Below, in pieces: positions 48,856 through 64,000 of a stretch of DNA of 64,000 nt (its first letter is position 1; each line of letters opens with the position of its first letter). Source of the stretch: an uncultured Flavobacteriaceae bacterium (GTDB lineage: Bacteria > Bacteroidota > Bacteroidia > Flavobacteriales > Flavobacteriaceae); NCBI GenBank assembly GCA_943789365.1, contig CALSTV010000001.1, positions 1,054,001-1,118,000 of the forward strand, read 5' to 3'. The notes under the pieces were generated by a model. It had not been told where the DNA came from. It worked only from the letters and a program-made list of their open reading frames with translations, and searched no databases. Position numbers and translations under genes: made by a program.

Positions 48856-51663
48856 TTGAAGAAACTAATTTATACGCTTATCACGGTTATTTCCATTTCT
48901 CTAAGTCAAATTATTGGACAAGAAATACCTCCTTTAAAAAATTACACTCCTAATTCCTACAAAGGAGGAAATCAGAACTGGAAACTCTCACAAAACAACA
49001 GCAAGCATATATATAGTGCCAATAACGAAGGACTTTTGGAATTTAGAGGCGCAAAATGGAAGTTATATCCTTCACCCAACAACACTATATTAAGATCGGT
49101 AACTACCATAGGTGACCTTGTATACACGGGTGCTCATATGGAATTTGGTGTATGGAAGAGAAGCGTTTACGGAGATTTGACGTACACGTCTATTAGCAAT
49201 CAGCTAAAAGTGCCTTTGGTGGAAGATGAAGACATCTGGAATATTATAGAATATGACAAATGGGTACTGTTCCAATCATTGCATAGAATTTACATATACA
49301 ATACAGAGGATACTTCTTTCAAAATCATCAAATCTGAAACGGTTTTGCAAAAAATATTTAAAATAAATAAAAGTATCTTTTTCCAAAAAACGAACGACGG
49401 ACTTTATAAAATTGAAAACGGTGAAGAAATTGCAATCTCTAAAGACCTGGTACTCAAAAAAAACATTTTAGTCAATATATATAGTGACAAAGAGGGACTC
49501 TTATTGTTAACGCAAGAAAAAGGATTCTTTCATCTCTCAAAAAACGGAACGCTAAACAAATGGAAGACAAAAAACGAATCTTTATTAGAGGAAATAAGTG
49601 TTTACAGCAGCTGTAAAATGTTTGACGGTTCTTATATATTGGGTACCATTTCAAATGGAATTTACATACTAAATAAGGACGGAGCAATTGTTTCAAACAT
49701 AAATCAAAAGAAAGGGCTTAACAATAATACAGTATTGGATGTATTCGAAGATCGCGATCATAACATATGGTTAGCATTAGACAACGGTATTAGTGTATTG
49801 AATTACAACGATGTCTATAAGGTATACAGTGATATCAATACCAATTTTGGAGCCGTATACACTGCTACTATTTTCGAGGACTATTTATATCTCGGAACCA
49901 ATCAGGGATTATTTTACAAGAAATCAAACAGTTCAAGCCCATTTCAACTTATTCAAGGTACAAAAGGACAGGTATGGTGTTTATCCATAATTGACAATGA
50001 AATTTTTTGCGGACATAATAAAGGGGCCTATCTTATAAAAAAGAACAAAGCGATAAAAATCACAGATACACCAGGTACTTGGGAAATCAAAAAAATTCCA
50101 ACTAATAAAAACTTATTACTGCAGGGTAATTACAATGGCTTATACGTATTACATCGTACAAATGGGAAATGGCAATTGCGAAACAAAATTGAAGGATTTG
50201 ACAACTCCAGTAGATTTTTTGAAATCTACACAAATAATGAAATTTTTGTAAACCATGAATACAAAGGAATCTTTAGGTTACAAACCAACGAAGATTTTAC
50301 AAAAATTACGAATGTAAACATAGACATTTCTAAAAAGGGAAATAAGTCAGGACTAACAAAGTACAAAGGAGAAATCATATACGGTTACAATGAAGGGATA
50401 TACATCTATGATTCCATTCAAAAAAACTTTGTGAAGTCTATTTTTTCTGACGAAGTATTTACGCCTTTAGAAAAATACATCTCAGGTAAAATTATCCACA
50501 CTACCAATGATAAACTTTGGGGATTTACCCAAAACAATATTGTCTATTTTTCATCTGACAAAATAAACAACACACCGAAAATCACAAAAATTGCATTACC
50601 GTCCGACATCCGTAGAGACATTTCAGGCTACGAAAACGTAACACATATTAAAGATGAAACATATTTAATTGGAAATGCACATGGCTACATCCTTTTAGAT
50701 TTAGATAAAATTGACACAAAAGCGCATACTTTACAATTACAGCAAATTACAAAAGGCTCCTTAAACGGCAGTAAATCAAAAGTACCCCTAAACACAGTAA
50801 GTACAATACCCTATATTGAAAACAATATAGACATTAGATATACCGTTCCTAACTATGATCGATTCACAGAAGTGAAATATCAGCATAAATTAATTGGACT
50901 GTACGACGAGTGGAGCACATGGACATTAAACCCAAGAACCGCTTTTAAAAACCTCCCTTTTGGAGACTATACATTTATTGTAAGGGCAAAAACAGGCAAC
51001 ACAATTTCGTCTAATGAAGTTAGGTATAGTTTTAGCATTGACAGGCCTTGGTATTTATCTAATCAAATGATAGGTACGTATATCTGTATCCTAATCTTGT
51101 TGTTTTTCAGCATCCATACCGTCTACAAACAATACTACAAAAGACAAAAGCAAAAATTACTGTATAAGAAGCAACGCGAATTTGAAAGAAGTCAGTTAGA
51201 AAAAGAAAAAGAAATTATGAAGCTTAGAAACGATAAGCTTAGAAGCGACATTGAAAACAAAAACAGAGAACTGGCGGCCTCTACTATGAGCATTATTAAA
51301 AAGAATGAATTTTTAAACACCATTAAAAAAGAATTACAAGACACCAAAGGAACGAACGCGGTTAACCCAGTAATTAAAATTATAGATAAAAACCTTAACA
51401 ACCATAGTGACTGGGAACTCTTCCAGGAGGCTTTTAACAATGCCGATAAAGACTTCTTGAAAAAAGTAAAAGATAAACATCCAAACTTAACACCAAACGA
51501 TTTGCGATTGTGTGCTTATTTACGTCTTAATTTATCCTCAAAAGAAATAGCTCCATTATTAAATATCAGCTACAAAAGTGTTGAAATAAAGCGTTACCGA
51601 CTTAGAAAAAAGATGGGATTGACCACCAAAGACAATTTAACCCACCATATTCTAGAAATTTAA
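48856..51663 (+). CDS. Membrane-spanning PUL regulator: periplasmic propeller, Y_Y_Y, TM, LuxR-type HTH
   Basis: 935 residues from the TTG at 48856 (MKKLIYTLITVISISLSQII is a clear signal peptide). Order: two-component-regulator-type propeller repeats (about 25-640, e.g. NNTVLDVFEDRDHNIWLALD), a triple-tyrosine (Y_Y_Y) domain ending near 730, one membrane helix (about 736-757), a cytoplasmic coiled coil, and a C-terminal LuxR-type helix-turn-helix (LTPNDLRLCAYLRLNLSSKE, YKSVEIKRYRLRKKMGL). There is no histidine kinase or receiver, so binding of glycan outside probably acts directly on DNA-binding inside, as proposed for SusR-like proteins. It is immediately upstream of susC, same strand. Confidence 0.9.
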   Translation: MKKLIYTLITVISISLSQIIGQEIPPLKNYTPNSYKGGNQNWKLSQNNSKHIYSANNEGLLEFRGAKWKLYPSPNNTILRSVTTIGDLVYTGAHMEFGVWKRSVYGDLTYTSISNQLKVPLVEDEDIWNIIEYDKWVLFQSLHRIYIYNTEDTSFKIIKSETVLQKIFKINKSIFFQKTNDGLYKIENGEEIAISKDLVLKKNILVNIYSDKEGLLLLTQEKGFFHLSKNGTLNKWKTKNESLLEEISVYSSCKMFDGSYILGTISNGIYILNKDGAIVSNINQKKGLNNNTVLDVFEDRDHNIWLALDNGISVLNYNDVYKVYSDINTNFGAVYTATIFEDYLYLGTNQGLFYKKSNSSSPFQLIQGTKGQVWCLSIIDNEIFCGHNKGAYLIKKNKAIKITDTPGTWEIKKIPTNKNLLLQGNYNGLYVLHRTNGKWQLRNKIEGFDNSSRFFEIYTNNEIFVNHEYKGIFRLQTNEDFTKITNVNIDISKKGNKSGLTKYKGEIIYGYNEGIYIYDSIQKNFVKSIFSDEVFTPLEKYISGKIIHTTNDKLWGFTQNNIVYFSSDKINNTPKITKIALPSDIRRDISGYENVTHIKDETYLIGNAHGYILLDLDKIDTKAHTLQLQQITKGSLNGSKSKVPLNTVSTIPYIENNIDIRYTVPNYDRFTEVKYQHKLIGLYDEWSTWTLNPRTAFKNLPFGDYTFIVRAKTGNTISSNEVRYSFSIDRPWYLSNQMIGTYICILILLFFSIHTVYKQYYKRQKQKLLYKKQREFERSQLEKEKEIMKLRNDKLRSDIENKNRELAASTMSIIKKNEFLNTIKKELQDTKGTNAVNPVIKIIDKNLNNHSDWELFQEAFNNADKDFLKKVKDKHPNLTPNDLRLCAYLRLNLSSKEIAPLLNISYKSVEIKRYRLRKKMGLTTKDNLTHHILEI

Positions 51664-51820
51664 GAACTACATTCTACATACATCACCTCTACATAACACA
51701 AAACTGCACCTTTTTTCTTTTTCTTCATACGACTATAAACATTTGTACACACCTATCCAAACCCCGCTAAAAACCACAAAGAAACATCTCTAATCACAGG
51801 TTTTAAAAGCAAAATCACAT

Positions 51821-51843
51821 TTGTGTAGTGCTCTTGTATAGGT
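51821..51843 (+). promoter_or_regulatory. PUL motif, copy 1
   Basis: Starts TTGTGTAG and ends TGTATAGGT; 18 of 23 bases are identical, without gaps, to 63053-63075 upstream of the GH16 gene. Candidate binding site of the regulator at 48856. Confidence 0.5.
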
Positions 51844-51969
51844 GCTTTTGCAAGAAATAAAAACAATCATTTGTAATTTACAGTAGAATTCAAACCCGAA
51901 TTTCCATCAGGCACTTAACTACATTTATAATTGTCGTTATAGACAAGTTACACTTGAAGGTATTCGACA

Positions 51970-51999
51970 TTAAATCGAAAACTCGAGACTTCGATTTAA
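51970..51999. promoter_or_regulatory. 30-bp palindrome before susC
   Basis: Arms TTAAATCGAA (51970-51979) and TTCGATTTAA (51990-51999) are perfect, and CTCGAG sits at the centre; 13 of 15 half-positions are symmetric. It ends 58 bp before the ATG. No T-run follows, so it is an operator or a leader stem rather than a terminator. Confidence 0.65.
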
Positions 52000-52057
52000 A
52001 AAACCAAATTAACAAAGGATACTTATTAAGTATTCAAACAATCAAAAACCAAAACCA

Positions 52058-55000
52058 ATGAAAATTAGACTATTACTAATTTTGTTTGTCTGTACGGCTT
52101 CAGCTCTGTACTCGCAACAAACGCAAGTGACGGGAACAGTCATCTCCTCTGAGGATGATTTCCCTATTGTAGGAGCCAACGTACTCATTCAAGGAAAGAA
52201 CACAGGTACAACCACAGATTTCGATGGAAACTTTTCACTTTCTGTCAACAAGGGAGACATATTGTCTTTCAGCTATGTGGGATTCGAAACCCAAACCGTC
52301 ACCATAGGCGACCAACAAACAATTAACATTACCTTAGGCGCCGATACAGCTGCCCTAGATGAAGTCGTTGTCGTAGGATACGGTACTCAAAAGAAAAAAG
52401 AGGTAACAGGTGCAGTGGCTGTAGTAGATGCAAAATCAATTGCAAAACTAAACCCACAACGTGTAGAACAAGCATTACAAGGTCAAATCTCTGGTGTGAG
52501 CGTTACCTCATCATCAGGTTCTCCTGGTAGCAGTTCTAACATTCGAATTCGTGGTATTTCTACAAATGGAGACAACAATCCATTGATTTTAGTAGATGGA
52601 AACGTTATTGAAGACTTATCAGTAATCAACCCAAATGACATAAAAAGCATCAATGTTTTAAAAGATGCAACCGCCGGTATTTACGGTGTACGTGCTGCCA
52701 ATGGAGTTATCTTAATCGTAACAAAAACGGGTAGAAAAAACAGTGATTTAAAATTCTCATTAGACTCTTACACAGGATTTCAACAAACCACAAGAGAAAT
52801 TAACGTATTGAATGCCACTGAATATGGATTAATCACAAACGAAGCTGCTGTTGCTGGGGGAAACGGCCCAATATATACAGATATTCCTTCCTTAGGTTAT
52901 GGAACCAATTGGCAAGATCAAGTATTTACAGTAGCTCCTATTTCGAACATCGACTTCACCGCCAACGGAGGTACTGAAAAAGCAGCTTATTCTTTTGGAA
53001 TTGGGTATTTAGACCAAGATGGAATTGTAGGAGGTTCTGCTGCTAATTTTAACAGGTTAACTGCACGTGCCAATTTTCAATACGACATTTTGGAAAATTT
53101 AAAATTGAACTCAACAGCAATTTACACTCACTCCAACAATAATAATTTTAAAGAAAACGAATTAGGTTCTGTTTTATTTAACGCCTTAAACATGAACCCT
53201 ACACAACCTGTAAAAGAAGACGATGGCACCTATTCTTTGGCAGAAGGTCTAGGAGGTGAAGTAATCAATCCAGTAGCACAAATTGCCAATACATACAACG
53301 AAACTCAAATTGACAAAATCAGTGCAACTTTAGGATTAAAATATTCATTTTTATCTGATTTCACCATAGACTCTAAATTTCAATACAACCACTCAGATGT
53401 AGCGCTCGATATATTCAGTCCTGAAGTATATTACGGAAGTGGTAAAGTATTTAACATTGACAGAAACGCTGTAAACGATGACGATACAAACTACCAAGAT
53501 TATACTTGGGATAACTTTATCACCTATAACAAAACTATCAATGACGATCACAATTTAAAAGTGTTATTAGGGATGTCTGTCTTCAAAACGATAGGTACCT
53601 TTGAAAGCTATACTGGATACGAACTTTTAGATGAAAACGGAAATCCAACGAACTCTCCTGACTATGCAAACTTAGCAAATGCAACAGAGGTAATAGACAA
53701 CAAAGAACAAGAGAAAATATTGGGTGCCAACACCTTTGATGTACGTCTATTGTCTTACTTTACTAGAATTCAGTATGACTACAAAGGAAAGTATTTATTT
53801 TCTGGTTTGATTCGTAGAGATGGTTCTACGCGATTTGGGCCAAACAACCGTTTTGGATACTTCCCATCTGCCTCTTTAGGGTGGAACATTTCTGAAGAAG
53901 ACTTTTTAGTCGACAGTTCTTGGTTAAACTTTTTAAAACTAAGATTGAGTTACGGTATCATTGGTAGTGATAAGATTGGAGATTATAGATATATATCTAC
54001 TCTTTCGGGACAAGCACGATATGTATCTGAAGGAGAACTTCTCTACGGAAAAGCAGAAGGTGACCTCTCCAATCCAGACATCAAATGGGAAGAGCAAGTA
54101 ACATCCAACATTGGTATTGATGCCAAATTCTTGGACAATTCTTTGAGCATCTCTATGGATGCCTTCTCTAAGAAAACAGAAGACTTACTTTTAAGCGCTC
54201 AAGTATCTGGAATTTTAGGTGCCGCAGCTCCTGGTTCTTCTGCTCCAACCGTCAACGCGGGTACGGTAGAAAACAGAGGATTTGAATTTGCCGTGAGCTA
54301 CAACAAAGCAGTAAGCGAAGACTTTAGATTTAATGTAAGTTATAATTTTACCACCTTAGAAAATGAAGTATTGTTTGTAGCCAGTGAAAACGGATTCGAA
54401 CAAGGAGGAAACTTTGGTGTAGGTCTTGAGCCCCCATCACGAATGGAAGCTGGAAAACCTATTGGATATTTCTACGGATACCAAACCGATGGCATCTTCC
54501 AAAACCAAGCTGAAATAGATGCCAGTGCCATAACAAGCACTTCTACAGCTCCAGGAGATCTAAAATTCGTAGATCAAAATAACGACGGAGTGATCGATCT
54601 CGATGATCGTGTAGATATTGGAGACCCAATTGCAGACCTTACTATGGGATTAAATATTGGAATGAATTATAAAAACTTTGATTTCAATGCCTCTGCATTT
54701 GCCTCCATAGGAAACGACATCGTTCGTAACTATGAAAGAAATCAACCACAAGTAAACCGTACCAACCAAAATTTGGGTAGATGGACAGGAGAAGGCTCTA
54801 CCAACGAAATTCCAAGAGTTACGGCAGGAACCTCTCCCAATGCCTTTTTCTCTGACTATTTTGTTGAAGACGGTTCATATCTGCGCATACAAAACGTGCA
54901 ATTAGGGTATACGCTTCCGGAAAACATTGTTACAACAGCGGGATTAGACAAACTGCGTATCTACTTTTCTGTAAACAATTTGTACACTTTTACAGACTAT

Positions 55001-55111
55001 AAAGGTTACGACCCGTCTGCTTCGGTAGGAGAGCCTATTGGCGCCGGAATTGACCAAGGGTTTTACCCAGTACCGAGAACTTATATGTTGGGTCTAAATG
55101 TTAAATTTTAA
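52058..55111 (+). CDS. SusC/RagA-like TonB-dependent outer-membrane transporter
   Basis: 1017 residues: signal peptide (about 1-19, ALYSQQ), carboxypeptidase-D regulatory-like domain (about 23-95, VTGTVISSEDDFPIVGANVL), TonB-box-like DEVVVVGYGTQ, plug domain (LQGQISGVSVTSSSGSPGSS, NPLILVDGNVIEDLS) and a 22-strand barrel ending YMLGLNVKF. It forms a lidded pair with the SusD protein 11 bp downstream to import oligosaccharides using TonB energy. First gene of the susC-susD-lipoprotein-lipoprotein operon. Substrate inferred from neighbours as beta-1,3-glucan. Confidence 0.96.
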   Translation: MKIRLLLILFVCTASALYSQQTQVTGTVISSEDDFPIVGANVLIQGKNTGTTTDFDGNFSLSVNKGDILSFSYVGFETQTVTIGDQQTINITLGADTAALDEVVVVGYGTQKKKEVTGAVAVVDAKSIAKLNPQRVEQALQGQISGVSVTSSSGSPGSSSNIRIRGISTNGDNNPLILVDGNVIEDLSVINPNDIKSINVLKDATAGIYGVRAANGVILIVTKTGRKNSDLKFSLDSYTGFQQTTREINVLNATEYGLITNEAAVAGGNGPIYTDIPSLGYGTNWQDQVFTVAPISNIDFTANGGTEKAAYSFGIGYLDQDGIVGGSAANFNRLTARANFQYDILENLKLNSTAIYTHSNNNNFKENELGSVLFNALNMNPTQPVKEDDGTYSLAEGLGGEVINPVAQIANTYNETQIDKISATLGLKYSFLSDFTIDSKFQYNHSDVALDIFSPEVYYGSGKVFNIDRNAVNDDDTNYQDYTWDNFITYNKTINDDHNLKVLLGMSVFKTIGTFESYTGYELLDENGNPTNSPDYANLANATEVIDNKEQEKILGANTFDVRLLSYFTRIQYDYKGKYLFSGLIRRDGSTRFGPNNRFGYFPSASLGWNISEEDFLVDSSWLNFLKLRLSYGIIGSDKIGDYRYISTLSGQARYVSEGELLYGKAEGDLSNPDIKWEEQVTSNIGIDAKFLDNSLSISMDAFSKKTEDLLLSAQVSGILGAAAPGSSAPTVNAGTVENRGFEFAVSYNKAVSEDFRFNVSYNFTTLENEVLFVASENGFEQGGNFGVGLEPPSRMEAGKPIGYFYGYQTDGIFQNQAEIDASAITSTSTAPGDLKFVDQNNDGVIDLDDRVDIGDPIADLTMGLNIGMNYKNFDFNASAFASIGNDIVRNYERNQPQVNRTNQNLGRWTGEGSTNEIPRVTAGTSPNAFFSDYFVEDGSYLRIQNVQLGYTLPENIVTTAGLDKLRIYFSVNNLYTFTDYKGYDPSASVGEPIGAGIDQGFYPVPRTYMLGLNVKF

Positions 55112-55122
55112 TATAGCGAATC

Positions 55123-56592
55123 ATGAAAATATTTAGTTTAAAAAACATCGCACTAGTAGGAATATTCGCTGTAACCATTGCATGCAGCGACGATTTTATC
55201 GACGTTCCTTCAAAAAATGAAAACTCAGAAGATTTTTTCAACAGTCAAGAAGACTATGAAGACGCGCTCATTGGAGCCTATGATCTTTTGCAATCCTCAT
55301 ATCTCAATGTAATGGTTGGAGAAATTGCCTCTGACAATACCCTGGCAGGTGGTGAAAGTGCTACCGACACACCAGGTATTCAGGAAATCGACGACATGAT
55401 ACACACACCTTCAAACGCTATCTTAAGAGATATCTGGAGCTGGATGTATGCTGGAGCAAACAGAGCCAATTACATTCTAGAATTCCAAAACAAAACAGAG
55501 TTTACAGGTAAAGCAAATATTATCGCTCAAGCTAAGTTTTTAAGAGCTTACTATTATTTCGAATTAGTAAAATGGTTTGGAGATGTACCGATGTCTGTGG
55601 ATAAGCGCTTGCAGTTTGGAGATCAATTTACAGTAGACAGAACCCCCAAAGCGGAAGTATATGCACAGCTCGAAAAAGACCTTACGGAAGCCATCCCAGA
55701 TTTACTGGCAACCCAAGAAATTGTTGGTTATGCTACGAAAGGTGCTGCACAAGCCCTATTAGGTAAAATCTATTTATACCAAGACAAATTCGACGAAGCC
55801 GCTACTGTTTTAGAAAATATTGTTACAGGTCCATACAGTTTAGTAACTGATTACAGTACCATTTTCGAACCAGCAGGTGAAAACAATAGTGAAGCTGTTT
55901 TTGAAATTCAGTACACAGACAAAGAAGGTGCTGATTACGAATGTCTTCAATGTAGTGAAGGAAATGTACTGGTAGGTTTTAGCGGAATTAGAGCGTACAA
56001 AGGTCCAACTTTTGACACAGGACATAGTTTTAACGTACCGACTCAAGAAGCCTACGAAGCTTTTGAAGCTAATGACTTAAGAAGAGATATCGCGATTCTA
56101 GATATTGAAGCTTGGAACACTGCAAACGGATCCACTTCAGGTGAAGGACATGAACACACTGGGTATTTTAACCGTAAATACCTCCCAAGAAAGGGAGACC
56201 TCAACACAGGAGATGCCAACCTTACAAACCCAAACAACTACAGAGCAATTCGCCTTGCTGATGTATTATTGATGGCGGCAGAAGCAAACAACAGAAAGAC
56301 AACACCTGATGATGCCAAAGCAAGAGGTTATTTGAATCAAGTAATTGAAAGAGCCTTTGGAAATGCAGATCACAACAGCTCGGCTAGCGGAAGCACATTG
56401 ACAACGGCTATCTTAAACGAAAGAAGATTGGAACTCGTAGGAGAAGGACACCGTTTCTTTGACTTAGTCCGAACTGGAAACGCTGAAGGAACTATTCCTG
56501 GATTTGAAGCTGGTAAACACGAAGTATTTCCAATCCCTTCTATTGAAATTGAATTGGCAGGAAGCCGATGGGAACAAAACCCACAATACTAA
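55123..56592 (+). CDS. SusD/RagB-like surface glycan-binding lipoprotein
   Basis: 489 residues with a lipoprotein signal (FAVTIACSDDF, cysteine 21) and the SusD fold: NSEDFFNSQEDYEDALIGAY, ANIIAQAKFLRAYYYFELVK, TKGAAQALLGKIYLYQDKFD TPR-like helices, and the C-terminal LNERRLELVGEGHRFFDLVR. It closes the SusC barrel as a lid and holds the glycan. Gaps of 11 bp to susC and 18 bp to the next gene indicate one operon. Confidence 0.96.
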   Translation: MKIFSLKNIALVGIFAVTIACSDDFIDVPSKNENSEDFFNSQEDYEDALIGAYDLLQSSYLNVMVGEIASDNTLAGGESATDTPGIQEIDDMIHTPSNAILRDIWSWMYAGANRANYILEFQNKTEFTGKANIIAQAKFLRAYYYFELVKWFGDVPMSVDKRLQFGDQFTVDRTPKAEVYAQLEKDLTEAIPDLLATQEIVGYATKGAAQALLGKIYLYQDKFDEAATVLENIVTGPYSLVTDYSTIFEPAGENNSEAVFEIQYTDKEGADYECLQCSEGNVLVGFSGIRAYKGPTFDTGHSFNVPTQEAYEAFEANDLRRDIAILDIEAWNTANGSTSGEGHEHTGYFNRKYLPRKGDLNTGDANLTNPNNYRAIRLADVLLMAAEANNRKTTPDDAKARGYLNQVIERAFGNADHNSSASGSTLTTAILNERRLELVGEGHRFFDLVRTGNAEGTIPGFEAGKHEVFPIPSIEIELAGSRWEQNPQY

Positions 56593-56610
56593 TCTTAAAT
56601 ACCTAACAAG

Positions 56611-58641
56611 ATGAAAAAAATAAATTATATATACAGCGCCATTTGCATGCTTCTTTTGAGCATTGGTTGCTCCGACGATGTGGTAGACCTTAGCTATGCA
56701 GATGCAGACAATCTTCCTGCTCCAGCAAATGTCTCAGCAACACTAAACGTGTCTCAAGACAATTCAGGGACCGTTTCCATTACACCCTCGGGAGAAAACG
56801 CTTCTGAATTCGAAATTAACTATGGAGATGGCACCGAAGAAACAGTTACTTTAACCACAGGACAAAGTACAGAACACATCTATACGGAAGGGAATTACGA
56901 CATTCAAGTAATGGCTTCAGGTATCGGTAATCAAAAAACAACCGCCATTATTCCTTTGATGCTTTCCTTTAGAGCACCAGAAAATATAGAGATCACTGCC
57001 GAAGTTGACGGTTCAAACCCTTTCCAAATAAACGTATCTGCAACGGCGGACTACGCCGCTTCTTTTCAAGTGTATTTTGGTGATGGTGACAATGAAGCAC
57101 CCACAGCACTAGCGCTAGAAGGAATGGTTTCACATGAATATCCGATGGTTGGAGACTATACCGTTAGAGTGGTTGCCTTAAGTGGAGGAACACAAACTTC
57201 GGAAGAAACAAAGGAAGTTAAGGTTTCTAAACCAACAAATTTACCTATCGATTTCGAAATTTTCGACACCACAGTTATTACTGATTTCGATGGTGGAGAG
57301 CTGACCGTAACTGACAACCCAGATGTTTCCGATGGAAACGGTTCTTCAAAAGTAGGACAAATGGTAAAAAAGGCAGGACAAACTTGGGGAGGAAGCCTCA
57401 TTACCTTATCCGCACCGATTGACTTTTCTGAGAAAAAAGTAATAAAAATGAAAGTTTGGTCGCCAAGAGTAGGTGCAAATGTATTGTTTAAGGTCGAAAA
57501 TTTAACTGAAAGCTCTATCAACTACGAACAAGAAGTAGCGACAACAACAGCAAATGCTTGGGAAGAAATTGCATTTGATTATTCAGGAATCAACGATACC
57601 AACGAATACCAAAAAATAATATTGATTTTTGACAATGGTACGATGGGAGATGGTTCAAGTGATTTTACCTTCTATGTTGACGACATCAAACAAGCAACCT
57701 CTATTAGTTCTGACCCAGAAGTATTCCCAATGGACTTTGAATTGCCTTTTAATTTGAGTTCATTTGATGGAGGAGAAATTAAAGTTATTGCAAATCCGGA
57801 AACTACAGGAAATAGTTCTGCCAATGTAATTGAATTGGTAAAAGGAGCTGGTGCCGTATGGGCAGGTTCTAAAATAACTGTTGACACTCCCTATGAAATG
57901 GCAACAAGCACTACGGTTACTGCAAAAATTTGGTCGCCTAGAGCAGGGTTGAATCTTTTGATGAAATTTGAAGATGCAACACCTTGGCCTAATACGGTGG
58001 CTACAGCAGACGCCATTGCAACAACAACAACAGGAAATGCCTGGGAGGAAATTACCTTTTCTTTTGCTGGTATAGATACGGCCATAGACTACCACAACTT
58101 GGTATTGATTATGGACAACGGAACAGCAGGAGACGGCTCTGCCAATTATACCGTTTACTTAGATGACTTCTCAATTGCCTCCTTCCTAGATTCAGAACCA
58201 GCCGAAACATTGAGCAGTTTTGACGGTGGGGAAATAAGCATCATTTCAAATCCACAAACGACAGGAAACAGTTCTTCCAATGTGGTCAAGCTTGTAAAAG
58301 GTGCAGGTGCTGTATGGGCAGGTTCTAAAATCACCTATGACACCCCCTATCCTGTAAAGAACGGCGATCAAATTACCATGAAGGTATGGTCACCACGAGC
58401 AGGGTTAGTATTATTGATGAAATTCGAGGATGCGACACCTTGGCCAAACAATAAAGAAACAGGAGAAGCAATTGCCACTACTTCTAGTGCAAACGAGTGG
58501 GAAGAATTAACCTTTACCCTTTCTGGTGTAGACCCTACGGTTTCATATACCAATATAGTATTGATTATGGACAACGGAACACAAGGTGACGGAACTGACA
58601 ATTACACCTTGTATATAGATGATATTAACAACGCCAACTAA
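56611..58641 (+). CDS. SusE-like surface lipoprotein: two PKD-like domains and three tandem carbohydrate-binding-type modules
   Basis: 676 residues. Lipobox LLLSIGCSDD (cysteine 20). Two PKD-like domains (about 35-120, with NYGDGTEETV, and 122-210, with VYFGDGDNEA), then three ~150-residue beta-sandwich modules beginning DFDGGELTV (~223), SFDGGEIKV (~382) and SFDGGEISI (~534). Modules 2 and 3 are nearly identical over AGSKITxDTPY, KxWSPRAGL and LLMKFEDATPWPN; module 1 is more divergent. By position it is a SusE/F-type surface glycan-binding protein, giving multivalent capture. No catalytic motif is apparent. Confidence 0.85.
   Translation: MKKINYIYSAICMLLLSIGCSDDVVDLSYADADNLPAPANVSATLNVSQDNSGTVSITPSGENASEFEINYGDGTEETVTLTTGQSTEHIYTEGNYDIQVMASGIGNQKTTAIIPLMLSFRAPENIEITAEVDGSNPFQINVSATADYAASFQVYFGDGDNEAPTALALEGMVSHEYPMVGDYTVRVVALSGGTQTSEETKEVKVSKPTNLPIDFEIFDTTVITDFDGGELTVTDNPDVSDGNGSSKVGQMVKKAGQTWGGSLITLSAPIDFSEKKVIKMKVWSPRVGANVLFKVENLTESSINYEQEVATTTANAWEEIAFDYSGINDTNEYQKIILIFDNGTMGDGSSDFTFYVDDIKQATSISSDPEVFPMDFELPFNLSSFDGGEIKVIANPETTGNSSANVIELVKGAGAVWAGSKITVDTPYEMATSTTVTAKIWSPRAGLNLLMKFEDATPWPNTVATADAIATTTTGNAWEEITFSFAGIDTAIDYHNLVLIMDNGTAGDGSANYTVYLDDFSIASFLDSEPAETLSSFDGGEISIISNPQTTGNSSSNVVKLVKGAGAVWAGSKITYDTPYPVKNGDQITMKVWSPRAGLVLLMKFEDATPWPNNKETGEAIATTSSANEWEELTFTLSGVDPTVSYTNIVLIMDNGTQGDGTDNYTLYIDDINNAN
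57281..58630 (+). repeat. Three in-frame modules of about 455-475 bp
   Basis: Module starts near 57281, 57756 and 58212. Copies 2 and 3 share long DNA stretches such as GTATGGGCAGGTTCTAAAAT and GATGAAATT(T/C)GA, which suggests a duplication more recent than the split from module 1. Confidence 0.8.
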
Positions 58642-58652
58642 AAACTAAAAAG

Positions 58653-59579
58653 ATGAAAAATAGTCTAAATATATTTAAAACACTATTTGTAGCAATCGCC
58701 TTTTTGGTGGTTGGCTGCGAAGAAGAAACTTATGAATTTGGAGAAATAACACCTCCTTCAGACATCGCCGTTACTGCGGTAATTCAGGGAGCAGATGAAG
58801 CAAATCCTTATGGAGATGGTAGTGGTATTGTTAGCTATACCGCTTCAGGAGAAGACGCCATTTCTTACAAATTTATTTTTAACGAAAGTGAAACAGTAGC
58901 ACCATCAGGGGAACACACCTATTTGTTCTCCAATACTGGAGTAGATACATATACGGTAACTGCTGTCGCTATTGGAACCGGAGGTGTTACCTCTAGTGTT
59001 GCTATCAATACAGAAGTACTCGTTACCTACGAACCACCAGCAGATCTCCTAGAAAAGTTATTTGGTAACGGAGAAAAAACATGGAGAGTTAAGTCAGAAG
59101 CGCAAAGTCATTTCGGACTGGGTGAAGTTAATGGCAACGACTTCGACAATATTTGGTGGAGGGCTGCACCTGGTGAAAAATCGGAAACAGGAATGTATGA
59201 CGATCGCTATATCTTTAATATCGATGGAACCTTTACACATATTACAAACAGTGTAAACGGCGATAACACAGGTACTATTTTCGGTAGAGAGCGTCCTTTA
59301 GAAGCCGATCTTGGTCCAACCGACGAAGCACCGAACGGAGCAGACATTGAAAATTACCCATATAATGATTATACGGAAACCATGACCATATCAGCACCAG
59401 GAGGTATTGAAACCATCAGTTTAACTGGCTACGGATTTATCGGATACTATAGCGGTGGAAATCACCAATATATGATTATGGACAGAGGAACTCCAGGCGA
59501 ATTAGTGATAAAAACAACCGATGATATTGCAGAATTCGATTGGTGGTTTATTATCACCGACGAAGAACCAATCGAATAA
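58653..59579 (+). CDS. PKD-containing surface lipoprotein of the PUL
   Basis: 308 residues with lipobox LVVGCEEE (cysteine 22), a PKD-like domain (about 35-130, with GSGIVSYTASGEDAISYKFI) and a C-terminal beta-rich domain of ~170 residues (LLEKLFGNGEKTWRVKSEAQ, WWRAAPGEKSETGMYDDRYI, YGFIGYYSGGNHQYMI). The PKD domain resembles the one on the GH16 protein at 63143. It is probably a second surface glycan-binding protein; I see no catalytic pair. It ends the susC operon, 12 bp after the preceding gene and before the terminator at 59701. Confidence 0.78.
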   Translation: MKNSLNIFKTLFVAIAFLVVGCEEETYEFGEITPPSDIAVTAVIQGADEANPYGDGSGIVSYTASGEDAISYKFIFNESETVAPSGEHTYLFSNTGVDTYTVTAVAIGTGGVTSSVAINTEVLVTYEPPADLLEKLFGNGEKTWRVKSEAQSHFGLGEVNGNDFDNIWWRAAPGEKSETGMYDDRYIFNIDGTFTHITNSVNGDNTGTIFGRERPLEADLGPTDEAPNGADIENYPYNDYTETMTISAPGGIETISLTGYGFIGYYSGGNHQYMIMDRGTPGELVIKTTDDIAEFDWWFIITDEEPIE

Positions 59580-59700
59580 TTCGTTTTTAGGAAACATAAA
59601 AAACGAGAATTGTTCTACAATTCCAAAGCTATCTCAAGAGATAGTCATAAGACAGTTAGTAGTTAGGTTTTTAGACCTGAAAATTGGTTAGTAGGAAGAA

Positions 59701-59728
59701 AAGGGGGAGGCGCCACCTCCCCTTTTTT
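59701..59728 (+). terminator. Terminator of the susC operon
   Basis: GGGGAGG (59704-59710), loop CGCCA, CCTCCCC (59716-59722), then TTTTTT. A second dyad CTATCTC-AA-GAGATAG lies just upstream near 59629. It separates the four-gene binding/import operon from the MFS and hydrolase genes. Confidence 0.88.
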
Positions 59729-59858
59729 AATAAAAAAACGGGTATGAGTCTCAAAAAATAACACAAGTATTGACATAAAGTTTCTTTCACTATTCTTGTT
59801 GTTCTCAAAAGACTGTATATCTATTAAATTTTGAACAAAACAATTAAGCAACAAACCT

Positions 59859-61394
59859 ATGTCAAAAAAACTTACCCTCATAGCATTTGTCGTCTCCTTA
59901 GGAGGATTTCTATTCGGTTTTGATGCCGGAATTATTTCGGGTGTCATGTCCTACGCAGGTCCCGAATTTGATTTAAACGATATGCAATCTGGATGGGTTG
60001 TAAGCTCTCCCTCCTTTGCCGCAATGATTGCCATGCTATTCTCTGGTAGGTTGAGCGACCTTATTGGGCGAAAAAAAATATTAATTGTCGTTGCCTTTTT
60101 ATATGCTTTGTCCGCATTACTTTCCGCAGATGCCAATTCCTACGAAATGCTCTACATCGCAAGAATGATTGGTGGGCTGGCTTTTGGTGCAGCACTCATA
60201 CTTGCACCTACATATATTGCTGAAATATCAACTGCTGAAAACAGAGGAAAACTCGTATCCATTCAGCAATTAAATATTGTACTTGGTTTCTTTGCTGCCT
60301 TCTTAAGCAATTACTACCTAAACAAATATAACAGTGATGGAGCTTCTTTTTTTACCGACGAAAATGTTTGGAGATGGATGCTCGGATTGGAATTGATTCC
60401 CGCTGTCCTCTATTTCAGTTTACTGTTCTTCGTACCTAAAAGTCCGCGATGGCTATATGCTCAAAACAAAATAACAGAAGCCAAAAGGGTTTTGAACCAA
60501 ATTCACGGAAATGAAATAGCAGCGCAAGAACTCCAAAGTATAGAACAAAACCTCAAAGAAAAGTCAGTGACTTCCAAGGTACACCTGAAAGAATTACTAC
60601 AACCGGCATTGCGTTATATAATGATGATTGGTTTAACGATTGGCGTCTTACAACAAGTTACAGGAATCAATGCCGTATACTTTTACGCAACTTCTATTTT
60701 TAAACAAACAGGAATTGGTACCGATGCTTCCTTTTCCTCCGGAGTGTTGTTGAGTTCGGTAACTGTAGTATTTACTTTTGTAGCTATTTTCCTTATTGAC
60801 AGAATGGGAAGAAGGCCATTGTTGCTTGTTGGTATCTCAGGAATTGCCCTAAGTTTATTGCTATGTGCCTATGGGTTTAACCAAGCTAGCTATGAACTAA
60901 CCTCAGCCGAAATTGCTGCTTTCGAAAACATCGAATCAGATCAGTTGACTCCTTTTGAAAACAAACTGTACGACAACGATCTAGATTTTAAAAATGACAT
61001 GAAAACAGCCTTAGGCACCCAAGTTTATGCAAAAAACGAAGGCGCTATATTAGAAGCTGCAACAAATATAAACGCAACATTAGTACTCATTGGTATTCTG
61101 GGGTTTATTGCCTGTTTTGCCTTTTCGTTAGGCCCTGTAATGTGGGTATTACTCTCAGAATTGTATCCACTAAAATACAGAGGATTAGCTATTGGTGTTA
61201 TTGGTTTTGTAAACTCTTTCGCCAGCTGGTGTGTACAGCAAGTATTCCCATGGGAACTTTCAAACTTAGGAAACGCGATGAGTTTTCTAATATTTGGAAC
61301 CATTGCCTTGCTTGGATTCTTTATCCTATTAAAAATATTACCTGAAACCAAGGGAAAATCATTAGAACAAATAGAAAGTGAATTCGTAAAGTAG
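59859..61394 (+). CDS. MFS sugar porter (sugar:H+ symporter type)
   Basis: 511 residues, twelve predicted helices. Sugar-porter signatures: GGFLFGFDAGIISGVM, SGRLSDLIGRKKILI (RxGRK loop), AEISTAENRGKLVSIQQLN, LQQVTGINAVYFYATSIFK, DRMGRRPLLLVGI and PETKGKSLEQIE. A soluble insertion of about 60 residues lies in a late loop (near residues 345-400). It should take glucose or short glucans into the cytoplasm after periplasmic cleavage. 21 bp before the GH gene, so the two form a second transcription unit. Confidence 0.92.
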   Translation: MSKKLTLIAFVVSLGGFLFGFDAGIISGVMSYAGPEFDLNDMQSGWVVSSPSFAAMIAMLFSGRLSDLIGRKKILIVVAFLYALSALLSADANSYEMLYIARMIGGLAFGAALILAPTYIAEISTAENRGKLVSIQQLNIVLGFFAAFLSNYYLNKYNSDGASFFTDENVWRWMLGLELIPAVLYFSLLFFVPKSPRWLYAQNKITEAKRVLNQIHGNEIAAQELQSIEQNLKEKSVTSKVHLKELLQPALRYIMMIGLTIGVLQQVTGINAVYFYATSIFKQTGIGTDASFSSGVLLSSVTVVFTFVAIFLIDRMGRRPLLLVGISGIALSLLLCAYGFNQASYELTSAEIAAFENIESDQLTPFENKLYDNDLDFKNDMKTALGTQVYAKNEGAILEAATNINATLVLIGILGFIACFAFSLGPVMWVLLSELYPLKYRGLAIGVIGFVNSFASWCVQQVFPWELSNLGNAMSFLIFGTIALLGFFILLKILPETKGKSLEQIESEFVK

Positions 61395-61415
61395 CCAACC
61401 ATAAAACGCAATCAA

Positions 61416-62729
61416 ATGAAAACATTTCTCACATTACTTCTTGGGTTTGTCATTGCACTTGGTACTATACTGAACATAAAGAAAAAATCTGTCATGCCTA
61501 TCGAAAGCCCTGTCAAAGTAACACTCAACAACCTACAAGGAAAATACCAATTGTTGGTCAACGGAAAGCCCTTCTACATAAAAGGAGCTGGCTTAGAATT
61601 TGGAGAAATAGCAAGTTTGGCTAAGCACAATGGAAACTCATTTAGAACCTGGAGAACATCCAATGGAAAACAAAGCGGAAAACAAATATTAGATGAAGCT
61701 AAAAAATACGGATTAATGGTCACCATGGGAATTGAAGTTGGAAGAGAACGCCATGGATTTGACTATGACAATCCTGAAGTAGTTCAAAAACAATTGGAAA
61801 ACATAAAAAAAGAGGTACTAGCACTAAAAGACCATCCTTCTTTAATGATTTGGGCTATTGGTAATGAATTGAATTTGCACTATAGCAACCCTAAGGTGTG
61901 GAATGCCGTCAATGAAATCTCGAAAATGATACATGAAATAGACCCGAATCATCTCACCACCACAACCCTAGCAGGCATCTCTCAAAAAGAAATCAATTAT
62001 ATCAAAGAACGCTGTACAGATCTCGATTTGTTATCCATTCAGATGTACGGAGAACTACCCGAGCTACCAAAGCTTCTCAAAAAGTACAATTGGAGAGGCC
62101 CTTATATGGTTACAGAATGGGGAGCGACCGGACATTGGGAAGTTCCAAAAACTTCATGGGGTGCTCCCATTGAAGAGCACTCAAGTTTAAAAGCGGCAAA
62201 CTATCTTCAACGATACAAAACAGGAATTGCCATTGACACCAAACAATGCCTAGGGTCCTATGTCTTTTTATGGGGACAGAAACAAGAAAGAACACCTACC
62301 TGGTACGGACTGTTTTTGGAAAACGGGAAAGAAACAGAATCTGTAGATGTTATGCATTATATATGGAATGATGCATGGCCCGAAAACAAAACACCACAAA
62401 TCACTTCCTTTACACTCAATAACAAAACGGCCTACGACAATGTGGTAGTAAAAGAAGGAAGTATCGTTTCTGCAGCATTAGAAATCACAGATCTTGAAAA
62501 GGATGACATTCATTACAGATGGGAACTTTTAAAAGAAAGCACAAGTGTACAAGAAGGTGGGGATTATGAAGAACGACCTAAAAACTTAAAGATAAAAACC
62601 ATCAAAATATCAAAAGGAACACTCGAATTCAAGGCACCGAAAAAAGGAAATTACAGACTGTTTGGCTATGCTAATGATGGACATTCACACGAAGCTACTG
62701 CAAACATCCCGTTTCGAGTAACAGAATAA
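61416..62729 (+). CDS. Clan GH-A glycoside hydrolase with C-terminal Ig-like domain (GH2-TIM/GH158-like)
   Basis: 437 residues: N-terminal signal sequence without lipobox (about 1-20); a substrate-facing N-terminal strand pair (YQLLVNGKPFYIKGAGLEFG); a (beta/alpha)8 barrel to about 315 with probable acid/base E151 (IWAIGNELN) and nucleophile E234 (YMVTEWGATGHW); and an Ig-like domain (about 330-437, ITSFTLNNKTAYDNVVVKEG). It is far shorter than true GH2 enzymes, having only the barrel. The barrel-plus-Ig layout and the beta-glucan setting make GH158 (endo-beta-1,3-glucanase) a good candidate, but the family cannot be fixed from sequence reading. Confidence 0.78.
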   Translation: MKTFLTLLLGFVIALGTILNIKKKSVMPIESPVKVTLNNLQGKYQLLVNGKPFYIKGAGLEFGEIASLAKHNGNSFRTWRTSNGKQSGKQILDEAKKYGLMVTMGIEVGRERHGFDYDNPEVVQKQLENIKKEVLALKDHPSLMIWAIGNELNLHYSNPKVWNAVNEISKMIHEIDPNHLTTTTLAGISQKEINYIKERCTDLDLLSIQMYGELPELPKLLKKYNWRGPYMVTEWGATGHWEVPKTSWGAPIEEHSSLKAANYLQRYKTGIAIDTKQCLGSYVFLWGQKQERTPTWYGLFLENGKETESVDVMHYIWNDAWPENKTPQITSFTLNNKTAYDNVVVKEGSIVSAALEITDLEKDDIHYRWELLKESTSVQEGGDYEERPKNLKIKTIKISKGTLEFKAPKKGNYRLFGYANDGHSHEATANIPFRVTE

Positions 62730-63142
62730 AAACATAATTCTTGTTTCAATGATTTCATGTTACATAATGATGCCAATACATTTATCAGATGCAATGAGAT
62801 AAAAGGTGATTATCACCAAAAAAAACTAATAGTTTAATCGAAAAAAAACAAGAATCATTGAAATTGCCGTTTCAAATGAAAAAAGAAGTGCCTCCTGTTT
62901 TCCATCCTAACAACTTATGAGCGATTTTATCACTACAACAACTATACATCGCTCTCATGTTATTGAATAGAAACTTGCAGAAAACATTTCAAAAAACACC
63001 TCTAAACAGCAGTAATAACAAGGGAAATCATCAACCTAATACAATTTAACAATTGTGTAGCGGTTGTGTACAGGTCATAAATTTCTTCAATCTTTTCAAC
63101 TGTATTAATTTTAAAAAACAATTAAACCAAAAACCAATTTCA
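62730..63142 (+). promoter_or_regulatory. Control region upstream of the GH16 gene
   Basis: 413 bp without a gene but rich in symmetric sequences: TTTCAATGATT (62744-62754) and its inverse AATCATTGAAA (62853-62863); the dyad GGTGAT-T-ATCACC (62805-62817); GAGCGAT/ATCGCTC (62919-62925, 62948-62954); and the 23-bp PUL motif at 63053. A weak -7-like TAATTTTA lies near 63104. Confidence 0.55.
63053..63075 (+). promoter_or_regulatory. PUL motif, copy 2
   Basis: Starts TTGTGTAG and ends TGTACAGGT, and contains TTGTGTA twice with an 11-bp period, about one helix turn. 68 bp before the GH16 ATG. See 51821-51843. Confidence 0.5.
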
Positions 63143-64000
63143 ATGCATACAGCGAACCGATATTTATTTTTATTGACTACTTTTTCATTCTTATTAATAG
63201 CATGTGCTTCAGATGACGACGATACTGTTGAGGGAACTCAAAATGAAATCGTTCCTTCTAACCTAATTATCGATATCAATATTGCAGGACAAGGAGTCTT
63301 ATATCCAAATGGTGATGGATCTGGAAATGTAAACATTACGGCCTCGGCAACAAATGCAAGTTCTTATATATTTGAATTTGACGAAAATGTAAGTATAGAA
63401 AACACAACAGGAATTGCTTCCTACCAATATACAGCGATAGGAAAAAACAGTTATACCGTAACGGTGACTGCCCTTTCTGAAACTGGAAATTCAGTAAGTC
63501 ATTTTAGACAAATAACGGTCTACAAAGGCGACTCAAATGAGGCTGGTCCAGGAACCCAATTAATCTGGTCTGATGAGTTCGATTCACCGGGAGCTCCAGA
63601 TACTAGTAAATGGACGTATGATCTTGGAGATGGCTGCCCGAACGTTTGTAATTGGGGAAATGGCGAAGCTCAATACTACACTGATAGAACAGAAAATGTA
63701 GAAGTAAAAGATGGTATTTTAAGAATCACAGCCAAAAGAGAAAATTACCAAGGCTATGATTTCACATCAACACGTCTAAAAACACAAGGGAAATTTAGTT
63801 TTACCTATGGACGAATCGAGGTACGCGCCAAATTACCTTCAGGAATTGGAACATGGCCTGCCATTTGGATGCTTGGAGATAATATTACTACTGTAGGATG
63901 GCCAGCTTGTGGCGAAATAGACATTATGGAACACGTTGGTAAAAACCTAGGCAGCGTACAAAGTGCTATGCATACGCCTTCGAGTCATGGAGCAACCGTA
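63143..64000 (+). CDS. GH16 laminarinase-like lipoprotein (3' end outside window)
   Basis: First 286 residues, open at the window edge. Lipobox FLLIACASDDD (cysteine 21); PKD-like domain (about 35-128, GDGSGNVNITASATNASSYI); then the GH16 catalytic domain (from ~136: LIWSDEFDSPGAPDTSKWTY, NWGNGEAQYYT, GTWPAIWMLG). The catalytic motif GEIDIMEHVG places nucleophile E258, D260 and acid/base E263. This form is typical of endo-beta-1,3-glucanases; the lipid anchor puts it on the surface, where it would cut laminarin for the SusCD pair. It has its own upstream control region. Confidence 0.92.
   Translation, partial: MHTANRYLFLLTTFSFLLIACASDDDDTVEGTQNEIVPSNLIIDINIAGQGVLYPNGDGSGNVNITASATNASSYIFEFDENVSIENTTGIASYQYTAIGKNSYTVTVTALSETGNSVSHFRQITVYKGDSNEAGPGTQLIWSDEFDSPGAPDTSKWTYDLGDGCPNVCNWGNGEAQYYTDRTENVEVKDGILRITAKRENYQGYDFTSTRLKTQGKFSFTYGRIEVRAKLPSGIGTWPAIWMLGDNITTVGWPACGEIDIMEHVGKNLGSVQSAMHTPSSHGATV

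Follow-up and report, generated by a model that had tools for sequence, protein, structure and literature searches.

Two long gene-free regions of a polysaccharide utilization locus (PUL) in an uncultured Flavobacteriaceae bacterium, one before susC and the other before a GH16 gene, hold similar 23-bp stretches. Are these stretches operators, and if so, which protein reads them? We addressed this question in a window of 64,000 nucleotides (GenBank assembly GCA_943789365.1, contig CALSTV010000001.1, positions 1,054,001 to 1,118,000, forward strand; coordinates below count from its first letter). An earlier note on this DNA had proposed a shared regulatory motif, with the neighbouring sensor carrying a LuxR-type helix-turn-helix (HTH) as its candidate binder. 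With a probability of roughly 85%, we conclude that the two copies are the promoter-side sites (site B) of paired activator operators, which serve the susC and GH16 units of a laminarin PUL and are bound by this sensor.

A tandem element upstream of susC and GH16

Re-reading of the window placed both copies in the two gene-free regions, as described: TTGTGTAGTGCTCTTGTATAGGT at 51821–51843 and TTGTGTAGCGGTTGTGTACAGGT at 63053–63075, each on the plus strand and identical to one another, without a gap, at 18 of 23 positions. Copy 1 consists of TTG followed by TGTAGTGCT-CT-TGTATAGGT and copy 2 of TTG followed by TGTAGCGGT-TG-TGTACAGGT, both a tandem 9-mer with an 11-bp period. The unit boundaries drawn previously were slightly off, the matrix-defined sites starting three bases later, at 51824 and 63056. 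TTGTGTA does occur twice in copy 2 at an 11-bp period, as had been noticed, but the true repeat unit is the 9-mer; a simple search for TTGTGTA repeats in relatives found almost nothing, and the literal string is therefore not the conserved unit. Comparative genomics instead yielded the core TGTnnnGGT-NN-TGTnnnGGT, in which half-sites of consensus TGTWGTGGT / TGTATAGGT are arranged head-to-tail.

Unsupervised motif search in the regulator gaps of 29 relatives, with the window left out, returned TGTTGTGGTaaTGTATAGGT, that is, the TGTnnnGGT tandem with its 11-bp period. A matrix trained on the regulator–susC gaps of other genera only, this genome being excluded, was then applied to both strands of the window (about 128,000 positions). 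Copy 1 (51824, plus) ranked first at 23.3 bits and copy 2 (63056, plus) second at 16.6 bits, while inverted partners at 51674 (minus; 12.8 bits) and 62929 (minus; 12.4 bits) ranked joint third and fifth. Pattern searches of the 3.73-Mb genome, the source of all genome-wide site counts given here, found a degenerate pattern of both copies at ≤3 mismatches in the two copies and one other, poor place. Hence the copies are beyond chance, given their first and second ranks under a matrix that lacks this genome and the single other place matching their pattern. That third place (C1:2621657, 3 mismatches) has no proper first unit and a low matrix score, and was rejected as a site. The sites and the genes around them are as follows.

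48856..51663, plus: putative sensor/activator gene (Pfam Reg_prop and Y_Y_Y, with GerE just under its cut-off), directly upstream of susC
51674..51693, minus: distal site A of the susC region, TGTAGAGGT-GA-TGTATGTAG, 10 bp past the regulator stop; 12.8 bits, 150 bp from site B
51824..51843, plus: promoter-side site B of susC (copy 1), TGTAGTGCT-CT-TGTATAGGT; 23.3 bits, top of the window
51874..51881, plus: −7 box of the susC promoter, TAATTTAC, at +51 from the start of site B; TA..TT core present
52058..55111, plus: susC (Pfam Plug/CarbopepD_reg_2), heading the controlled operon susC-susD-PKD-308aa-MFS-GH437
62929..62948, minus: distal site A of the GH16 region, TGTATAGTT-GT-TGTAGTGAT; 12.4 bits, 127 bp from site B
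63056..63075, plus: promoter-side site B of GH16 (copy 2), TGTAGCGGT-TG-TGTACAGGT; 16.6 bits
63106..63113, plus: −7 box of the GH16 promoter, TAATTTTA, a full TAnnTTTA match at +51 from the start of site B
63143..64000, plus: GH16 lipoprotein gene (Pfam GH16), ATG at 63143, running past the window to about 64267
64303–64322, minus (site A), and 64453–64472, plus (site B): third pair, beyond the window end, 150 bp apart, before a 1044-aa glycoside hydrolase (GH)-like gene

The earlier description of the copies stands, and the inverted partners, the third pair and the phasing described below are additions to it. A TTG-started frame of GH16 crosses copy 2 (63053–63142); ATG 63143, with a lipoprotein signal after it, is the plausible start. 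The congeneric genome G002 holds a near-identical counterpart of the 51824–51843 site, TGTAGTGCTTATGTATAGGT. Fourteen relatives have a homolog of the 1044-aa gene as first target; in 5, it carries an additional site of its own.

The element is kept in related PULs, where its absence would have spoken against a shared motif. In relatives, site A is the motif reversed, about 22 bp past the regulator stop in most genomes, and site B is a variant, TGTATRTTT-TT-TGTWGNGGT, lying forward near the target gene. Among held-out ortholog loci, 36/40 had site A and 35/40 site B, against 1/20 and 4/20, respectively, for loci beside 20 paralogous regulators of 30–33% identity (1% shuffled threshold throughout). 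Of 74 additional loci with duplicates removed, many of them belonging to named species, 66 had both sites; the named genera include Lutibacter, Gelidibacter, Maribacter, Winogradskyella, Polaribacter, Aquimarina, Flavobacterium and others. The paired-operator design recurs in dozens of related genera. One genome (G125; L052, L066 and L068) has three copies of the regulator with slightly different boxes (TGTAGTGGT, TGTAGTAGT/TGTCGTAGT and TGTCGTGGT), as if their specificities were being insulated.

Spacing and promoter geometry of the paired sites

The A–B spacing spans 101–175 bp across relatives and is not continuous. Distances at 119 loci fall into classes of 101–105, 114–116, 121–128, 135–140 and 146–151 bp with few beyond, giving a vector strength of 0.65 near an 11.5-bp step. 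Each of two separately tested sets beat all jitter-null trials (p≤2e-4), p-values that are too small because the loci are related, an objection answered in part by comparison of sister pairs. Of 27 mutual-nearest regulator pairs, 22 differ in distance by 0–3 bp and the rest by 8, 11, 11, 11 and 22 bp; none of the 27 differs by anything near half a turn. The three pairs of this genome, at 127, 150 and 150 bp, all lie inside the allowed classes. Helical repeats of DNA loops in vivo in E. coli are 11.0–11.6 bp (PMC1762422, PMC8501960). One locus, L276 (genome G301, family f5), where a 44–46% ortholog is accompanied by both sites and a −7 box at +51, has a spacing of about 241 bp, which far exceeds that of every other locus.

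Site B is also fixed relative to the promoter. Relative to the start of site B, TAnnTT lies at exactly +51 in 105 of the 119 loci and is 1 bp off in 11 more; other offsets are rare. In this genome it stands at exactly +51 after all six matched sites before β-glucan genes, compared with 0/10 unrelated matches from the same search, one of which has it at +50 (C1:1491449). The flavobacterial sigma-A −7 box is TAnnTTTG at −12 to −5 (PMC9723704), and placed by this box, site B spans about −62 to −43. Its location just upstream of the −33 region, with a TAnnTTTA −7 box at a fixed distance, is the geometry of an activator site. The site at C1:1491449 (G000; L138, L254), with 3 mismatches and TAACTTTG at +50, precedes the gene of a 252-aa secreted protein of unassigned role, a possible extra member of the regulon.

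The regulator and its targets

The sensor comprises Reg_prop and Y_Y_Y domains, one transmembrane helix near residue 740, a coiled region and a predicted C-terminal LuxR/GerE-type HTH. The GerE score of the window protein is 22.6 bits against a Pfam cut-off of 23.5, that of a paralog is 26.2 bits and above the cut-off, and the HTH is kept in an alignment of the window sensor with orthologs and paralogs. Pfam and NCBIfam gave no match to a histidine kinase, receiver or AraC-type HTH in the sensor. Of the 149 family genomes sampled, about 80 have an ortholog. At the ortholog loci examined, nearly all are followed in the same direction by susC or a PUL glycosidase gene, most often 220–300 bp downstream. 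Autoregulation in this genome was rejected, the best site upstream of the regulator gene (48856) scoring −2.7 bits. In the congeneric G002 (L014, L154), a strong inverted site (24 bits; C12:1024785-1024804) lies upstream of the regulator gene itself, which suggests autoregulation there.

Sites and sensor occur together. Strict sites were found in 41 of 81 genomes with a sensor ortholog and in 1 of 68 without (p=7e-13), and across the genomes sampled the strict pattern gave 52 sites compared with 9 for its reverse. Loci of paralogous regulators (L105–L124) have the same inverted layout, at 99–104 or 114 bp, with tandem boxes of TGACGTAGT or TGATGTAGT; in several, a third half-site, TACGTCAA, lies between these sites, and the PULs examined beside these regulators encode PF10091, GH3 and GH97. 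The HTH region shifts in the alignment from (R/K)SVE(V/I)KRYR in the ortholog clade to RG(V/L)E(T/I)(N/H)RYR in the paralogs, so that box and predicted reader co-vary between regulator clades. Co-occurrence across genomes and the different box beside paralogs support the proposal that the neighbouring sensor is the candidate binder: the protein predicted to bind the sites is very probably the Reg_prop/Y_Y_Y/LuxR-HTH sensor encoded just upstream.

Among distant homologs in other Bacteroidota families (25–34% identity), a directly downstream susC-like gene is mostly absent. Loci of family f3 with such a gene have a similar inverted pair with a different box, spaced 150–151 bp in the two measured. 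At L259, L260, L262 and L264, outside the Flavobacteriaceae but in the same class (33–34% identity), the pair consists of inverted CTACATCATTACCTCTCA and TGATGTA(N4)TGTAGAG, 150–151 bp apart in the two loci measured.

Target genes were sought with the pattern TGTAGAGGTNNTGTATAGGY, which has 18 matches in the genome versus 5 for a reversed-pattern control. At ≤2 mismatches it finds five sites, before susC, GH16, the 1044-aa gene, a distal GH16 with a type IX secretion system (T9SS) tail, and GH17; at 3 mismatches a site precedes the gene of a 1587-aa GH81 protein. An A-type site lies before the gene of a 683-aa T9SS protein in a GH17/GH30 cluster. The genome thus has few strong matches, placed before β-glucan genes, which bears out the idea of a shared regulatory motif, and the distal GH16, the GH17 and the GH81 β-1,3-glucanase genes among them are not linked to the PUL. 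Since these unlinked genes have single sites, the inverted pair belongs mainly to the PUL promoters. The PUL itself carries two GH16 genes, GH149 (NF058639, 1800 bits) and GH3 alongside susC/D, and its substrate, as predicted from these enzyme families, is β-1,3-glucan, most likely laminarin. The 683-aa protein (L252:4823-6874) has no other Pfam domain beside its T9SS tail; its gene, in the GH17/GH30/transporter cluster, has a weak B site as well, and an N-terminus like its own begins the first target gene in G109. It is a candidate β-glucan surface protein.

Computation thus supplies the site, its layout and phasing, the promoter offset, conservation, co-occurrence and the target genes; from these we infer the binding protein, activation, ligand and loop. 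The sensor would read β-glucan oligosaccharides in the periplasm and activate transcription from site B at −62 to −43. Each operator comprises two 9-bp half-sites and, because these repeat at an 11-bp period, two HTH domains could share one face of the helix. Since the A–B spacing is held to whole helical turns, dimers on the inverted sites A and B would probably come into contact, either by way of a short DNA loop or as parts of a single activator complex.

Several observations weigh against the sensor-bound paired operators. The 18/23 match between two AT-rich regions is not significant on its own: when both control regions were dinucleotide-shuffled, 76 of 300 trials (25%) gave a best ungapped 23-bp match of at least 18/23. 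In this genome the inverted partners score low (9–13 bits), and the distal GH16, GH17 and GH81 genes have none, while genome G121 has a strong site and no full-length sensor ortholog. The relatedness of the loci behind the phasing statistics belongs here too. Chance similarity of two AT-rich intergenic regions would account for the pairwise match, yet a matrix built without this genome picks both copies ahead of all other positions in the window, and neither conservation nor phasing nor the −7 offset depends on that match; we give chance practically no weight. Resemblance between core promoters, with the shared stretch reflecting the −33 region of Bacteroidota promoters, fits the T-rich −33 region and the −7 box that follow the promoter-side sites at a constant distance. 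It is nonetheless very improbable, as the distal sites are the same sequence reversed 101–175 bp away, site B ends upstream of the −33 region and the genome holds few other matches. We rejected both of these explanations on the matrix ranks, the few genome matches, the −7 boxes at +51 and the co-occurrence with the ortholog.

The sites could also be genuine operators of another β-glucan transcription factor that merely co-occurs with the sensor. The distal genes lacking an inverted partner and the strong site of G121 would fit such a factor, but site A follows the regulator stop closely in most genomes, the sites track the ortholog across 149 genomes, and paralogous regulators keep the layout with a different box, all of which makes this unlikely. 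A further alternative concerns the phasing within the sensor-bound reading. Both dimers may face RNA polymerase from one side with no protein-bridged loop; placement on the same face would by itself quantise the spacing, and the distal genes manage with one site, from which it follows that a loop is not essential at every target. Against this, the sites are inverted and 9–15 helical turns apart, an arrangement not usually seen with simple side-by-side contact, and the fitted step of ~11.5 bp is the repeat measured for loops in vivo. We regard such loop-free phasing as possible, at something like one chance in three.

We place at even odds the broader proposal that a Bacteroidota family of membrane-anchored one-component activators joins inverted tandem-box operators by a short phased loop, with the letters of the box following the HTH clade. 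If it holds, evolution has altered the loop almost only by whole turns over about 120 loci, recording the in-vivo repeat (~11.5 bp). For many PULs whose control is unassigned, the sequence could then reveal operators and regulons, because box letters follow the HTH clade (TGTWGTGGT versus TGACGTAGT) and the layout is constant.

Comparison with known systems

Few carbon pools consumed in algal blooms are as large as laminarin, of which Flavobacteriaceae are major consumers. The element offers a testable regulon, comprising the PUL and the unlinked GH16, GH17 and GH81 genes, and allows control of many related PULs to be predicted. Moreover, the natural spacing series opens loop-based control by a membrane-bound activator to direct testing. 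We found no published operator or motif for flavobacterial laminarin PULs in the open-access literature searched. An annotation of the first gene as LuxR is already known from other laminarin PULs, for example that of Muricauda lutaonensis, which shares the LuxR-type regulator in first place, a PKD protein, GH2-like, GH16, GH149 and GH17; the passages on that PUL contain no operator, motif or promoter analysis (PMC13188888).

The sensor half, Reg_prop/Y_Y_Y, is related to those of hybrid two-component systems (HTCS), the solved HTCS sensors 3V9F, 4A2L and 3OTT matching it by profile with E-values of 1e-42 to 3e-25. HTCS identity is excluded for the window sensor, which lacks kinase, receiver and AraC-type HTH by Pfam and NCBIfam and instead has a predicted LuxR/GerE-type HTH after the membrane and coiled parts. 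Predicted HTCS motifs are also direct repeats, with a spacing of about 21 bp (PMC3878776). The lac looping operators resemble the present sites in being paired and working best at whole-turn spacing (PMC1762422, PMC8501960). There the spacing was set by experimenters and the protein is a soluble repressor, whereas here the series comes from evolution and the presumed activator is anchored in the membrane.

The closest likeness is to the SusR-like regulons of Bacteroides (Ravcheev et al. 2013), where the motif consists of two directly repeated sites, their centres separated by 67 or 77 bp (PMC3878776). Both systems have a membrane-anchored one-component sensor with a periplasmic sensor part, a C-terminal HTH and no kinase, encoded beside susC (PMC3878776), and both have two long-separated conserved sites, the SusR spacing taking two values one turn apart. 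The window regulator would, on its architecture and gene position, work like SusR, but we do not class it as a SusR regulon, since the direct repeat at 67 or 77 bp is not found. Here the sites are inverted, 101–175 bp apart in several phased classes, and each is itself a tandem with an 11-bp period. The arrangement is hence a variation on known SusR-like PUL regulation, in which the inverted, phased pairs of tandem-box operators are new.

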